Part shown: positions 9,768-29,648 of the stretch, one piece after another
Numbering within the stretch: the stretch's first letter is position 1
Layout of the letters: every line of letters begins with the position of its first letter
Source: Clostridiales bacterium
GTDB lineage: Bacteria; Bacillota; Clostridia; Lachnospirales; Lachnospiraceae
Assembly: GCA_021199255.1 (NCBI GenBank)
Contig: JAJQIK010000086.1
Span: forward strand, 1-57,923
Length of the DNA: 57,923 bases
Reading direction: 5' to 3'
Position numbers and translations under genes: made by a program
The notes under the pieces: model-generated
Seen by the model: the letters and a program-made list of their open reading frames with translations, nothing else
The model's database searches: none
Told to the model about the DNA's origin: nothing

Positions 9768-9953
9768 TATAATTCAGTGAACGCGAAAATTTATTCTCCG
9801 AAACGGCTGAATTTAGGCGATTGCAATGCAGTATAAACCCATCTTATTACTGCACTGTCTGATCAACAATGGCTCAACGGTATGAGATGGCACAATTAAA
9901 CACACAGCTGCCTATTGAATGGGGAGCTGCACACCCGGAATGGAGAGATTCCA

Positions 9954-10181
9954 TCAGGAATCAATATTTGTTTTTGCTTCTTGGCAAAATTTTATTACAA
10001 CACACTTAATCGGTATAAACAACAGCACCAATACCATCATTTTGAAATCTACAATAAATAACCCGATTACGCTACCTGCCATACTGAACGCCTGCTTAAC
10101 CACAAAGAAAACACCACTGTAAACCCCCGTTAGAAGTAGGCCAGGAAGCATTGGTATCTGATGTACCGACAGAATACCCAA
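9954..10181 (-). pseudogene. possible ABC exporter transmembrane-domain fragment
   Basis: A 75-codon open stretch encodes two hydrophobic helices ending FKMMVLVLLFIPIK, followed by a basic segment. This resembles one hairpin of an ABC_membrane exporter domain, where a phrase like NWKLALLVLLFIPL is common. There is no ATPase domain, no clear ribosome binding site and no partner gene nearby, so it is best read as a leftover of a decayed peptide/lantibiotic-type exporter. It could also be a chance hydrophobic frame. Confidence 0.3.
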
Positions 10182-25047: not shown

Positions 25048-26043
25048 TTAACCGATTGTTCCCACTGTCTTCATCTGATGCAGCCGTCCATCCCCGGTCA
25101 GCTCCACCCGGCACAGATATCCCTCTCCGTTGCCGCACTGATAGTCATAAAACTCCCTGCGGGGCGACGCATAGCGGTGCAGAATACTCATAATCGTACC
25201 TCCATGGGCTATGAGAACCGCGTCGGAGGCCAGCGTCGGCAGAAGCCTTTCAAAGCCCACGCCGCATCGGTTCTTCATCTGCTCCATGGATTCCCCCTGG
25301 GGAAAGGGCAGCGTGCCGCCGCTCTCCAGCCATTCCTGATAGACCGGGCGCAGGCCTGGCTCCTGCAATAATTCTTCATAAGTTCTGCCCTCAAAAAGTC
25401 CGAAATCTGTCTCCCGAAACTCCGGGTAAATCTCCGGCGTTACCTCAGGATACAGCAGCCCCGCCGTTTCCAGGCACCGCCGCATGGGACTGGCAATCAC
25501 TCTTGCCGCCTGAGGATATGCGCCCGCCTCCCGGCGCTTTTTCAGGTCAGCCTGTCCCCGGCTGCACAGAGGTTCGTCCGTGACGCCGATATACCGTTTC
25601 TGTAAATTACCTTCCGTGCTGCCATGGCGGAGCAGGGTAAGAGAAACCGTCCGCTTAATCACCTGGCCAATCCCACAGTGCACCCGCTCTACCAGATCCG
25701 CTTCCTCCGCCAGCCGGCAGAGCACCCTGCCCACACATTCCCGGTAATCCCGTTCGGCTTTCTCCATGGGAATGATCCCATTTCCGACCTCATCACAGAT
25801 CAAAATAATATCCGGGCTGCGGTCGGCCAGCCGATGGAGATAGGCGGCCACCCTGTCCACATTTTCTTCCGTCTGTTGGCTCTCCAGCATCTCACGGATC
25901 AGCTCATGCAGCCCGTTGACGCACCGCCAGCTTCCCTCCGGAACCGGATAACCGTCCTGCCATATCTGCGCTTCCTCCACCCCGTAGCTTCTTTTAACAT
26001 ATTCCTTTTTGCCCTGATAAGCGCCTCCGATCACCAGCCGCAT
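25048..26043 (-). CDS. cobC: CobU-like domain fused to alpha-ribazole phosphatase (CobC)
   Basis: 331 aa, two domains. Residues 1-140 resemble CobU, ending ICDEVGNGIIPMEKAERDYRE...RVHCGIGQVIK as CobU proteins do. The P-loop, however, is GGAYQGKKEY rather than the GxxGSGKSxxAE of the cobU at 29785-30327, so kinase function is uncertain. Residues 150-331 are a histidine phosphatase with LLRHGSTEGN, SPMRRCLETA, the acidic FRETDFGLFEGRTYEEL and AHGGTIMSI, matching CobC, which dephosphorylates alpha-ribazole-5'-phosphate. It overlaps the upstream gene by 13 nt. Confidence 0.85.
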   Translation of the reverse strand: MRLVIGGAYQGKKEYVKRSYGVEEAQIWQDGYPVPEGSWRCVNGLHELIREMLESQQTEENVDRVAAYLHRLADRSPDIILICDEVGNGIIPMEKAERDYRECVGRVLCRLAEEADLVERVHCGIGQVIKRTVSLTLLRHGSTEGNLQKRYIGVTDEPLCSRGQADLKKRREAGAYPQAARVIASPMRRCLETAGLLYPEVTPEIYPEFRETDFGLFEGRTYEELLQEPGLRPVYQEWLESGGTLPFPQGESMEQMKNRCGVGFERLLPTLASDAVLIAHGGTIMSILHRYASPRREFYDYQCGNGEGYLCRVELTGDGRLHQMKTVGTIG

Positions 26044-28838
26044 GATTCGCCATCCCTCTCATTTACCTCTTCCACTTCCATTTGTTCCAGATATTCCGCC
26101 ACCTCTCCGTCGACGCCCTCCAGCAGATAGTTCTTCCCGCCCGCAGGCTGTTGGGAGGACGCCAGAAAGTTCTGCCGTAGTTCTTCCCCCGCGGCCATCA
26201 CTTCCTGTTGAAATTCCCTGGCGGAAACACGCACAGCGCCTGCTCCCATAATAATCAACTGCTCCAGGCCATCGGAGGTAGCCACCCGGACGCGGTATTT
26301 GCCCCGCATATGATGGGATACCTTCTCAATATACTGATCCGCCGTCTCCGCTTCCCTGGTATACACCACGTCGATGTTATGATAACGTACCGTGCTGCCG
26401 GGATTGCCCCTGACCTTATAAGCGTCAAAAACCAGAATCAGCTCCATTCCCCGGCATGCCTGAAAGTTGCTCATCATTTCCATCAGCTTTCCCCGCGCGC
26501 CGTCCAGGCTGACCCTGGCAAGCTCCCGCAGCTCGTCCCAGGCAAAAATAATATTATAACCGTCTACCAGAAGGTATTCCTTCTGAAGCTGCGGCGTCCC
26601 GCGATAAACAGAACCAGAAGCGGAGGGCGCATGTATGGTTCTTGCCCAGCCCTGCTTCTTAACCGGTTTCCTGCCATAAGTACGACTAAAAATCTCGTCA
26701 ATCTCCTCCTGTGCGATAAAATCCTCGGAAACGCCGCCGTGCAGAGGCCGCCTCCTTGCATAGCGGGACGCCTGCTCTTCATACTCCGTCCCGCCGCATT
26801 TTCCTCCTTCCGAAGCGTCGCCCAGCCCATAGAGGGAACCGTCCTGCAGCTTCCAGCCCCTGACCAGGGCAGGCTCCAAATGCATATAATCCTCCACCTG
26901 ATCCCATTCTACCACAAATCCGGCGCCATGGGCGCAAAACACGGAACCGCAGGGATTGTCCGGATCGCGCTCCGCCTCATAGCCGACGGCTTCTATCACC
27001 TCTTCCGCATTATGGCAGGGCTCGTAACCCTTTAAAAAGGTAAACAACCTACCCTTACCGCCGGAATAAGACAGCAGCTCCGTCTGATATCCATGCATCT
27101 GTGACGCCGGAACTGTGCCGGTCAGAATCGCAGTCCCATTCTCCGACTGGGGCGCGCCGAAGCGGCCTCCCTTCGCCTGTATATCCGTCATGGCGCGTCC
27201 AATCAGCCCCTCCGGCAGCTCCAGCCTGAACTCATAGACGGGCTCCAGCAGCACGCTCCGCGCCCTGCAAAGCCCCTGCCGGACGGCCCGGTAGGTGGCC
27301 TGCCTGAAATCGCCGCCCTCGGTATGCTTCTGATGGGCACGCCCTGACGCCAGCGTAATCTGCATATCCGTAATAGGAGAGCCGGTCAGCACGCCCAAAT
27401 GCTCCTTTTCCTCCAGATGGGCCAAAATAAGCCGCTGCCAGTTCCTGTCCAGCACATCTTCGGCACAGGCGGTTCGAAACTGTAAACCGCTGCCCCGCTC
27501 CCCCGGCTCCAGAATCAGGTGCACTTCGGCGTAATGCCGCAAAGGCTCAAAATGCCCCACGCCCTCTGCCACGTCGGCTATCGTCTCTTTATAAACGATC
27601 CTTCCCTCGTCAAAGCCCACCTCCACGCCAAAACGCTCTAAGATCAGGCTGGTCAGTATTTCAATCTGCACCTCTCCCATAAGCTGAACGCAGATTTCCC
27701 CGGTTTGCTCCCTCCAGACCATATGAAGCTGCGGCTCTTCCTCCTCCAACTGGCACAGCCTCCGGTAGGTCTGATGGACGTCGCAGCCCTCCGGCAGCAC
27801 AAGCCGATAAGTCATAACCGGCTCCAGAACAGGCATCGTGATCTTCTTTTCCGCTCCCAGCCCTTCTCCGCAGAAGGTTCTCGCCGGCCCCGCCAGCGCA
27901 CAGACACAGCCCGCCTCCGCCTCCTGCTTCAGGGTATATTTGCTGCCGGAATACACCCGGATCTGATCCACCTTTTCTTCCAATGAAGTCGCTCCGCCGT
28001 CCGCGTCCCGCACCGGTATCGTCTGCTTGACCTTCAGGCTTCCCCCGGTGATTTTCACATAAGTCAGACGGACGCCCTGAGGATCCCTGGCAATCTTAAA
28101 TACCCGCGCGCCGAAGGAAACGCCATAATCCGGCATGCGGGTGTACGCCCAAACGCCGTTTAACAAATCTTCCACTCCCTCTGCTTTCAACGCGGAACCG
28201 AAGTAGCAGGGAAAAAGCTTCCGTTCCCGGATCAGCTCCGCGATCGTGTCCTCGTCAATCAGCCCGCCGCCATCTGCCCCTTCCTTTTCCAGATATCTCT
28301 CCAGCAGAAGTTCATCGGTAACCGCGATATTCTCATAAAATGCTTCCCGCGCCCGTTCTTCATACTGAAACGCCACGCACCCTTCATCCAGTCCGGTTTT
28401 CAGCTCCGCCAGCAGCTTCCGGGGATCTGTGCCGGGCTGATCCATTTTATTCACAAAAAGAAACACAGGAACATGATAACGTTCCAAAAGCTTCCAGAGC
28501 GTAAGCGTATGTCCCTGCACACCGTCCGCGCCGCTGATAATCAGCACCGCATAATCCAGAACCTGCAAAGTCCGCTCCATTTCGGCGGAAAAATCCACAT
28601 GCCCCGGCGTATCCAGCAGGGTAACCTCCATATCCTTCCAGCAAAAACACGCCTGCTTGGCAAAAATAGTAATGCCCCGGTCGCGCTCCCGGACGTCCGT
28701 ATCCAGGAAAGCGTCCTTATGGTCTACGCGCCCCGGCCTGCGAATCTCACCGCCGGCATACAGCATACTTTCCGCCAGAGTGGTTTTACCCGCGTCCACA
28801 TGGGCAAGGACGCCAAGAACTATCTTTTTCTGACCCAT
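26031..28838 (-). CDS. TetM/EF-G-like translational GTPase fused to a YacP/Rae1-type NYN nuclease domain
   Basis: 935 aa. The first 650 residues follow the ribosomal-protection/EF-G layout: G1 AHVDAGKTT, G2 RDRGITI, G3 DTPGHVDF, G4 NKMD, then domains II-V. A linker of about 100 residues leads to a C-terminal NYN domain from about 755: LLVDGYNIIFAWDEL, LILVFDAYKV, TADQYIEKV and VATSDGLEQ. This aligns well with YacP/Rae1, a B. subtilis endonuclease that cleaves mRNA in the ribosomal A site. Both halves would therefore act at the same place on the ribosome. It is placed between cobS and cobC with overlaps but has no B12 motif. The ATG at 28838 follows GGGAG. Calling it a tetracycline-resistance gene would be unsafe. 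Confidence 0.87.
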   Translation of the reverse strand: MGQKKIVLGVLAHVDAGKTTLAESMLYAGGEIRRPGRVDHKDAFLDTDVRERDRGITIFAKQACFCWKDMEVTLLDTPGHVDFSAEMERTLQVLDYAVLIISGADGVQGHTLTLWKLLERYHVPVFLFVNKMDQPGTDPRKLLAELKTGLDEGCVAFQYEERAREAFYENIAVTDELLLERYLEKEGADGGGLIDEDTIAELIRERKLFPCYFGSALKAEGVEDLLNGVWAYTRMPDYGVSFGARVFKIARDPQGVRLTYVKITGGSLKVKQTIPVRDADGGATSLEEKVDQIRVYSGSKYTLKQEAEAGCVCALAGPARTFCGEGLGAEKKITMPVLEPVMTYRLVLPEGCDVHQTYRRLCQLEEEEPQLHMVWREQTGEICVQLMGEVQIEILTSLILERFGVEVGFDEGRIVYKETIADVAEGVGHFEPLRHYAEVHLILEPGERGSGLQFRTACAEDVLDRNWQRLILAHLEEKEHLGVLTGSPITDMQITLASGRAHQKHTEGGDFRQATYRAVRQGLCRARSVLLEPVYEFRLELPEGLIGRAMTDIQAKGGRFGAPQSENGTAILTGTVPASQMHGYQTELLSYSGGKGRLFTFLKGYEPCHNAEEVIEAVGYEAERDPDNPCGSVFCAHGAGFVVEWDQVEDYMHLEPALVRGWKLQDGSLYGLGDASEGGKCGGTEYEEQASRYARRRPLHGGVSEDFIAQEEIDEIFSRTYGRKPVKKQGWARTIHAPSASGSVYRGTPQLQKEYLLVDGYNIIFAWDELRELARVSLDGARGKLMEMMSNFQACRGMELILVFDAYKVRGNPGSTVRYHNIDVVYTREAETADQYIEKVSHHMRGKYRVRVATSDGLEQLIIMGAGAVRVSAREFQQEVMAAGEELRQNFLASSQQPAGGKNYLLEGVDGEVAEYLEQMEVEEVNERDGESCGW

Positions 28839-28880
28839 AAACAATCTCCCTAAATGATATCTGCCCATCCTGCGGGCTCC

Positions 28881-29648
28881 TTATAGGACTCTTCCCAGCA
28901 GTCCTGCTATCAGCACGCTGGACAATTCGCACAGGCACAAGAAATATCCCGCCAAATCCCCTGTGATACCGCCAAACTGATTTCTGGACATATAATAATA
29001 ATACGTCCAGACCCACATGGCGGCCAACGCCATCACTGAGCCGATGATCGGCTGTATCAGCACTACGCTGATAAAACAAATGGCCAGCGCCACCGTCAGC
29101 GCCACCCGCACCGTCTGCTTATGAGCCGTAGAGGAAAAACGATACAACAGCCCCTCCTTCTTAGCGCCGGGGAACCATACCAGAGACATACCGCTCAAGG
29201 TTCTGGAAATCACAAAGCCAAAGGCCAGCAGCAGCAGACTCTCCTTCTGCCAGATCTGCGTCAGCCCCGCCGCGTACAACAGGAAATAACTGATTACCGC
29301 AATCACCGAAAACGCGCCGTTATGGGGATCTTTCAAGATTTCCAGCTTCTTTTCCCTGGAACCGTAGGAATGAAGCGCGTCAGCGGTATCCATCAAACCG
29401 TCCAGATGAATCCCGCCTGTTACCGCCGCCGGAATTACCGCCCCGACCAGGGCGAAACAGGTCTGACCGAACCCACAGGCGATACAGGTTCTGCCCCATG
29501 CGTACATCAGGGCGCCGATGATCACGCCCACGAAAGGGAAAAAACAAATAGAATATTTCATATTGTCCTGATTCCATTCCGTCTTGGGCATGGGAATCCT
29601 GGAATACATGGCTATGGCTATGATAAAGCTGTTGATTACTGAGCGCAT
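28881..29648 (-). CDS. cobS: adenosylcobinamide-GDP ribazoletransferase
   Basis: 255-aa polytopic membrane protein. CobS signatures: SRIPMPKTEWN at the start, FFPFVGVIIGAL, and the metal/substrate motif GGIHLDGLMDTADALHSYGSRE. It joins alpha-ribazole to adenosylcobinamide-GDP, the last assembly step. GGAGG lies 10 nt before the ATG. A 136-bp gap separates it from cobU. Confidence 0.95.
   Translation of the reverse strand: MRSVINSFIIAIAMYSRIPMPKTEWNQDNMKYSICFFPFVGVIIGALMYAWGRTCIACGFGQTCFALVGAVIPAAVTGGIHLDGLMDTADALHSYGSREKKLEILKDPHNGAFSVIAVISYFLLYAAGLTQIWQKESLLLLAFGFVISRTLSGMSLVWFPGAKKEGLLYRFSSTAHKQTVRVALTVALAICFISVVLIQPIIGSVMALAAMWVWTYYYYMSRNQFGGITGDLAGYFLCLCELSSVLIAGLLGRVL

Follow-up and report, generated by a model that had tools for sequence, protein, structure and literature searches.

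A translational GTPase fused to a Rae1/YacP-type nuclease is widespread in Clostridia and is probably their GTPase-carried form of Rae1

In Gram-positive bacteria it is, to our knowledge, an open question which factors select ribosomes for cleavage of the mRNA in their A site. In eukaryotic no-go decay, a GTPase factor (Dom34/Hbs1) and an A-site mRNA endonuclease (Cue2/NONU-1) act on stalled ribosomes. Here, we analysed a stretch of DNA of 57,923 nt (the window; contig JAJQIK010000086.1 of assembly GCA_021199255.1, from a Clostridiales bacterium of the Lachnospiraceae) in which a single gene, at 26031..28838 on the minus strand (935 aa, stop codon included), joins a translational GTPase to a NYN nuclease of the Rae1/YacP type, and we asked what such a protein does. 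Sequence comparison suggests that one fused protein finds the stalled ribosome and cuts its message, and it seems to us probable, if by no means certain, that the fusion serves these bacteria as their Rae1, carried by a GTPase: an A-site mRNA endonuclease for stalled ribosomes.

The open reading frame (ORF) runs from 28838 to 26031 without an internal stop; an alternative ATG at 28868, ten codons upstream, would give a protein of 945 aa. Residues 1–610 (27009..28838, minus strand) make up domains I–V of the GTPase half, as delimited by Pfam, AlphaFold and Foldseek. Pfam places GTP_EFTU at residues 6–232 (E 2.2e-49), EFG_III at 339–408, EFG_IV at 412–526 and EFG_C at 529–610, while domain II (EF-G_D2) is matched weakly (E 0.0069, below its cut-off). 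Across 47 aligned fusions, no residue of the G motifs AHVDAGKTT, DTPGH and NKMD varies except A16, which is nearly invariant, and these motifs, the PGH of switch II and domains II–V (domain II weakly by Pfam) place the protein in the EF-G/EF2 family of translational GTPases. The original prediction, made from the letters alone, had read a TetM/EF-G-like GTPase with its G motifs in the 935-aa protein, and the Pfam domains and the motif alignment confirm it. The best 50 Foldseek matches in the PDB consist of EF-G, EF-2 and proteins closely related to them, with no NYN structure among those 50.

At the other end, residues 756–920 (26079..26573, minus strand) match the NYN_YacP profile PF05991 from position 1 to 164 of 166 (E 1.8e-48, 165 bits against a cut-off of 24.6), and YacP/Rae1 of B. 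subtilis (PDB 5mq8, 5mq9) matches the fused tail at an E of about 4e-27, so that the YacP/Rae1-type nuclease predicted at the C-terminus holds as well. Mapping the Rae1 alignment onto 47 fused homologues pairs D759 (26562..26564), D805 (26424..26426), D834 (26337..26339) and D856 (26271..26273; all minus strand) with Rae1 D7, D53, D81 and D104, respectively; the NYN aspartates are present and, by sequence alignment, in register. Across 83 distinct fused sequences (89 rows, from which five duplicates and a partial second copy belonging to the window were removed), D805, D834 and D856 are each kept in 83/83 and D759 in 82/83, the 83rd having an undetermined letter at this site. The fusion shares with B. 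subtilis Rae1 the family and the four acidic residues; Rae1, by contrast, is free-standing and co-transcribed with yacO/rlmB (PMC6613710), whereas the NYN domain of the fusion lies C-terminal to a GTPase and is encoded elsewhere. No NYN_YacP domain other than that of the fusion was found in its own genome (99.28% complete).

The fusion is a real, conserved variant of known parts, the architecture itself having been reported in 2015. A local sequencing or assembly join is excluded, because the fusion is met again in many distinct genomes, isolates among them, and because the ratio of non-synonymous to synonymous substitution rates (dN/dS) is about 0.1 in both halves. Compared with L015 (G and L numbers here and below are our own handles), dN/dS is 0.110 for the GTPase, 0.105 for the NYN domain and 0.171 for the linker between them, and compared with L014 it is 0.103, 0.086 and 0.159, respectively; with dS of 1.15–2.2 in these two pairs the values are rough, and a third pair (L016) is saturated for two of the parts. 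The two halves are under similar purifying selection.

One scan of a genome collection returned 61 loci, by title mostly from Lachnospiraceae and Clostridia. Among 200 genomes of the window's family, NYN_YacP is present in 180, as a single copy in 175 of them; frame sizes, read for 150 listed places, are at least 780 aa in 131, at most 220 aa in 11 and intermediate in 8, and since two of the 11 short frames result from a frameshift (G042) and a contig end (G128), nine free-standing ones remain. A profile of the GTPase half matches 171 of the 200 genomes at 1e-150 (169 of them once), with 148 of 150 listed frames being fusion-sized, and the fused GTPase is single-copy in most genera of this sample. 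In the class sample, NYN_YacP is found in 250 of 393 genomes (249 over the cut-off; one copy in 245), and the 150 listed places divide into 79 fusion-sized, 65 free-standing and 6 intermediate frames; the GTPase half matches 159 of the 393 at 1e-170, and 128 of 150 listed places are fusion-sized. At the level of the phylum, the GTPase profile matches 21 of 299 genomes, 18 with fusion-sized frames and 3 with frames of about 650 aa. The original prediction had proposed to look for the domain pair across Clostridia; with fusion-sized frames at 131 of the 150 listed family places and 79 of the 150 listed class places, the fusion is widespread in Clostridia, occurs in many families and is normally the genome's only NYN_YacP domain.

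The free-standing gene bears on the role of the fusion. Free-standing yacP lies in a conserved operon of the order cysS-mrnC-rlmB-yacP-sigH: at 22 loci outside the family, the neighbours (families named by Pfam on representatives) are of the sigH type in 22/22 and of the rlmB type in 20/22, and at 10 loci inside the family of the rlmB type in 7/10, of the sigH type in 4/10 and of neither type in 3/10. We looked for this operon in 18 chosen fused genomes and obtained a sigH match in 17 (all but G060); of these 17 sigH regions, L228, L229 and L234, the last of which is short, lack rlmB and 14 have it. yacP is absent from 13 of the 14 rlmB-bearing operons, the gap between rlmB and sigH being 0–56 nt in seven and 156–626 nt in five (tblastn spans, approximate). 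The operon of the window's genome, likewise without yacP, has a 453-aa ORF between rlmB and sigH (L219 1069–2430, minus strand), which contains repeated VSGN/VSDN motifs and, by eye, a C-terminal part resembling SGNH hydrolases. As yacP is absent from the operon in nearly all of the fused genomes so read, the fusion most probably stands in for Rae1 there.

Trees were made for both halves. In a tree of NYN domains, the fused ones and the free-standing ones of Lachnospirales group apart from those of other Clostridia (support 97, 50 of 52 rows), the fused NYNs of L068 and L143 lying with the other free-standing ones; a second tree brings all 52 fused and Lachnospirales rows together (support about 95). 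It follows that the nuclease half was probably derived from a yacP of the Lachnospirales type, and a single fusion origin is compatible with the data (approximately unbiased test, p-AU 0.51). We also considered whether the free-standing NYNs of the family might have arisen by secondary fission, and dropped this reading because 7 of the 10 sit behind rlmB in the old yacP operon; the argument covers these seven, with L172, L174 and L178 outside it. For the GTPase, a tree of 67 sequences (quick search, LG+G4, support by the Shimodaira–Hasegawa-like approximate likelihood ratio test, SH-aLRT) separates a clade of Tet(M), Tet(S), Tet(Q) and TetB(P) (99) from the subfamily to which the window protein belongs (100, stem 0.82). 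Inside the subfamily, unfused proteins from Paenibacillus, some Lachnospirales and other Clostridia form a clade (99) that stands against a fused clade (80), which holds all 40 fused rows and three unfused ones: L058, L063 and L194, a plasmid gene of Ligilactobacillus salivarius, sit in it without a NYN domain, although the contig of L058 ends 265 bases past the frame, so that its loss of the NYN is only probable. By sequence, the GTPase is a distinct, non-Tet subfamily with an unfused sister clade of about 655 aa. These unfused proteins, annotated as 'translation factor GTPase', are 42–43% identical to the window protein and share with it the H-T-x-GGDF tip of domain IV, the residues C608, C635 and H653, and an MH that closes the element described next; they differ in having neither linker nor NYN.

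The original prediction had the GTPase first and the nuclease last, and this order stands; between them, however, lie a conserved element and a mostly disordered linker. The element follows domain V at residues 611–660 (SVFCAHGAGFVVEWDQVEDYMH; 26859..27008, minus strand), is modelled with block means of the predicted local distance difference test (pLDDT) of 82–91, and is common to fused proteins and the unfused sister clade. Two near-invariant residues, C635 (82/83 fused sequences) and H653 (81/83), lie inside it and a third, C608 (82/83), just before it. The element belongs to the GTPase, because these Cys/Cys/His residues are conserved in all 27 unfused rows (25 distinct sequences) too, and C608, C635 and H653 (26880–27017; H609 is less conserved) may form a metal or redox site. 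The linker, residues 661–752 (26583..26858, minus strand), varies in length, the distance from H653 to D759 being 61–210 aa with a median of 92 (89 rows, duplicates included), and most of it is modelled with low confidence. In its midst, a conserved helix motif, ExxxIFxRTYG (residues 710–722; 26673..26711, minus strand; E712 in 81/83 and I716 in 77/83 fused sequences), is modelled by AlphaFold as a helix at 710–721 (block mean 63). AlphaFold, run on the 47-row alignment, models both halves confidently (mean pLDDT 80.6, predicted template modelling score, pTM, 0.59; block means of 64–95 in the GTPase half), with pLDDT below 50 at linker residues 673–709 and 722–749; from this model the linker appears mostly disordered.

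How might the two halves work together? For B. subtilis, Rae1 has been described as an endoribonuclease of the ribosomal A site whose access stalling may improve (PMC6613710), and it attacks A-site mRNA according to a passage of PMC12320835 that concerns freeing the A site for transfer-messenger RNA (tmRNA). In the fusion, the GTPase half in its GTP form would enter the factor site and A site of ribosomes with an open or blocked A site, as EF-G and TetM do, and the flexible linker would tether the nuclease, which would cut the message there; a ribosome-seated mRNA nuclease, as the original prediction had it, is the reading we favour. As ligands of the A site, domain IV and Rae1 should exclude one another from it, so that a sequential hand-over, in which the cut would probably follow the withdrawal of domain IV upon GTP hydrolysis, or action on a neighbouring ribosome is the likelier course, and the flexibility of the linker would make both feasible. 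Trans-translation would then clear the truncated complex; a tmRNA gene is present in the genome (80.1 bits, gathering score 47). The fusion would combine, in one bacterial polypeptide, counterparts of the factor and the nuclease of no-go decay; the eukaryotic parts, however, are separate proteins of an unrelated GTPase class and an unrelated nuclease family, so that the likeness is one of analogy only. A more far-reaching proposal, which we put forward tentatively and consider possible rather than probable, is that in much of Clostridia, gut Lachnospiraceae above all, a GTP-controlled no-go-decay factor has replaced free Rae1: its non-Tet GTPase would recognize stalled ribosomes, test or clear the A site by its HxKHTEGGDF tip and hand the A site to the tethered nuclease, and the unfused sister would be an unnamed ribosome-quality-control GTPase, wider in Bacillota and partly misannotated as tetracycline resistance. 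A natural fusion of a GTPase with an A-site nuclease in many families, with the free nuclease gene absent from its operon in the genomes read, offers one candidate for the factor that selects ribosomes, and makes the question of selection testable with one purified protein.

Several observations weigh against the fusion being a GTPase-carried Rae1. Domain IV and a docked Rae1 should compete for one A site, which makes their simultaneous action doubtful, and the structure model (pTM 0.59) gives no relative placement of the GTPase and NYN halves; we found no biochemistry on the fused protein. One fused genome (L231, 1 of 14) keeps yacP in its operon, more than one NYN_YacP copy occurs in 5 of the 180 family and 5 of the 250 class genomes that have the domain, 15 of the 150 listed family NYN matches cross stop codons, and 3 of the 10 free-standing NYN genes of the family are not in the old operon within the sequence read. 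Nor do the two modules travel together strictly. A separate GTPase is found in six of nine family genomes with a free-standing yacP (four of these GTPases are placed in the unfused clade, while G099, in two frames, and G161 are assigned by score), and the other three lack a GTPase of the subfamily at 1e-70 (completeness 96%, 67% and 87%). Among 65 genomes with a free-standing NYN (one of them, G406, in the family), 19 have an unfused GTPase (18 with a match of at least 1e-190 strength, while that of G344 is in a piece) and 46 have none, showing no match or weaker, Tet-like ones. Conversely, six class genomes (G224, G227, G253, G375 and G481, with frames of 645–671 aa, and G267) have the GTPase without any NYN_YacP. 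An obligate pairing of the unfused GTPase with free Rae1, which we considered, is unsupported by these counts. Finally, 20 of the 200 family genomes have no NYN_YacP, and all 20 are also without the GTPase at 1e-70, a joint absence that is not independent evidence, because the loss of one gene suffices to produce it.

This looseness gives some room to the explanation that survives best beside a GTPase-carried Rae1, namely that the fusion couples only expression and ribosome localization, the NYN domain doing ordinary Rae1 work and the GTPase a separate job, EF-G-like or drug-protecting, without any delivery by GTP. A long and mostly disordered tether is what such an arrangement would allow, both modules occur apart in related genomes, and L063, L194 and probably L058 have the GTPase of the fused clade without the nuclease. 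Yet the fusion occurs across many clostridial families, its two halves being similarly constrained, and the conserved linker helix is not needed for mere co-expression. We regard this explanation as unlikely.

The second alternative takes the fusion for a protein of resistance to tetracycline or another A-site drug that makes use of an RNase activity. One sentence of Atkinson 2015 (PMC4342817) reports a YacP-like NYN on Tet proteins of ten Clostridiales species and raises a possible new resistance mechanism. Its fused 'Tet' proteins have the identical architecture and come from the same bacterial group, and so constitute a prior report, which differs from the present analysis in dealing with ten species, Tet proteins and resistance, where we find a non-Tet subfamily, present in most genera of the family sample, with Rae1 absent from the operon. 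Beyond Atkinson 2015, no further report of the fusion was found among the matching papers listed, which for some searches were a part of all matches and did not take in the full text of the main Rae1 papers or of Li 2013 on Tet(O). As far as searched, it is new that the GTPase is distinct from Tet, that the fusion is distributed as a single copy across the family, that rae1 is absent from the operon, that an element after domain V is conserved and that the two halves are similarly constrained.

In favour of resistance, the fold is TetM-like. The EF-G-like domains I–V of Tet(M), Tet(O), Tet(S), Tet(Q) and TetB(P) are all present in the fused protein (the element after domain V and the nuclease are features of the fused protein that set it apart from them), and by its best profile match, NCBI tet_protect, Tet is the nearest named family. 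However, the window protein scores 407 bits and five relatives 374–450 against a cut-off of 775, which both controls exceed (Tet(M) 876, TetB(P) 939), the identity of the fused GTPase to Tet proteins is 27–32%, and the tree puts the two in separate clades. The tip of domain IV differs, too: in the loop III region, residues 499–512 (GRAHQKHTEGGDFR; 27303..27344, minus strand; delimited by alignment and conservation, pLDDT 64), the fused protein has HQKHTEGGDF in place of the SPVSTPADF or SPASTPADF of Tet(M), Tet(S), Tet(Q) and TetB(P), and H502 falls in the alignment on the histidine at the tip of the EF-G from the same genome. The altered tip is nevertheless compatible with drug protection, because loop III has the same length in the fused GTPase and TetM and because a TetM with S508A, P509A and V510A can be active (PMC4750697). 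The assignment of the GTPase to the ribosomal-protection (Tet) class in the original prediction is accordingly not borne out by the tree, the NCBI cut-off or the domain IV tip. Its expectation that automatic annotation would label the protein tetracycline resistance was half right: RefSeq names one fused protein 'TetM/TetW/TetO/TetS family' and another 'translation factor GTPase family protein'. Some members are on plasmid records, which would also suit a resistance gene; on the other side, the single-copy presence in most genera of the family sample argues against resistance, which moreover leaves the absence of yacP from the operon unexplained. On balance, we consider a resistance function improbable, and a role as Rae1 would take widespread gut-bacterial genes, some of them so labelled now, off tetracycline-resistance gene lists. 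Among the plasmid genes, L194 (L. salivarius UCC118 plasmid pMP118, 3526–5917) adjoins a copy of rpsN, the gene of ribosomal protein S14, on the plasmid and carries the annotation TetM/TetW/TetO/TetS family; matches occur in 33 plasmid records of Ligilactobacillus.

That the NYN domain cuts rRNA or tRNA on the ribosome, for inactivation or processing, rather than mRNA would fit the early proposal of a role of NYN domains in rRNA/tRNA maturation (as cited in PMC4342817) and an A-site carrier that exposes 16S rRNA and tRNA as well, but it is very improbable for a domain that belongs to the Rae1/YacP family proper and is present where Rae1 is missing, B. subtilis Rae1 being described as an mRNA cutter.

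The surroundings of the gene were also part of the puzzle, since the original prediction asked why it is carried within cobalamin genes. At the window locus this setting is true: genes of the cobQ, cbiB, cobS, cobT and cobB/cbiE/cbiT types exceed their NCBIfam cut-offs, and types cobU and cobC near the fused gene fall below theirs. The cobS gene lies 42 nt before the fused gene (28881..29648, minus strand; TIGR00317, 112.3 bits, cut-off 110), and the downstream gene (25048..26043, minus strand; 331 aa) overlaps the fused gene by 13 nt. The product of the latter is alpha-ribazole-phosphatase-like in its C-terminal part, from residue 135 (103.9 bits against a cut-off of 162.9), and by eye cobU-like in its N-terminal part. 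Elsewhere, cob neighbours occur at only 12 of 84 loci, all 12 close relatives of the window (the 84 include truncated copies and the unfused L058 and L063, and 65 have more than 3 kb on both sides), so that the setting is local to near relatives and a cobalamin link of the fusion was rejected. No neighbour gene common to the other loci was found, the largest cluster (23 loci) being mixed in side and strand, and no cobalamin riboswitch is detected in the window at Rfam gathering scores. Far from the fusion, at 9839–9994 on the plus strand, the window carries a DUF2800 RNA motif of a cis-regulatory Rfam family (79.9 bits, gathering score 60.2).

With PADLOC models of anti-phage defence, 0 families match the fused protein at 1e-3. 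Two 'Bacteriophage sp.' records from human faeces that carry no annotation, MT835563.1 and MT835514.1, encode 93–95% of the fused protein at 49–55% identity, and may represent either phage cargo or misfiled bacterial contigs.

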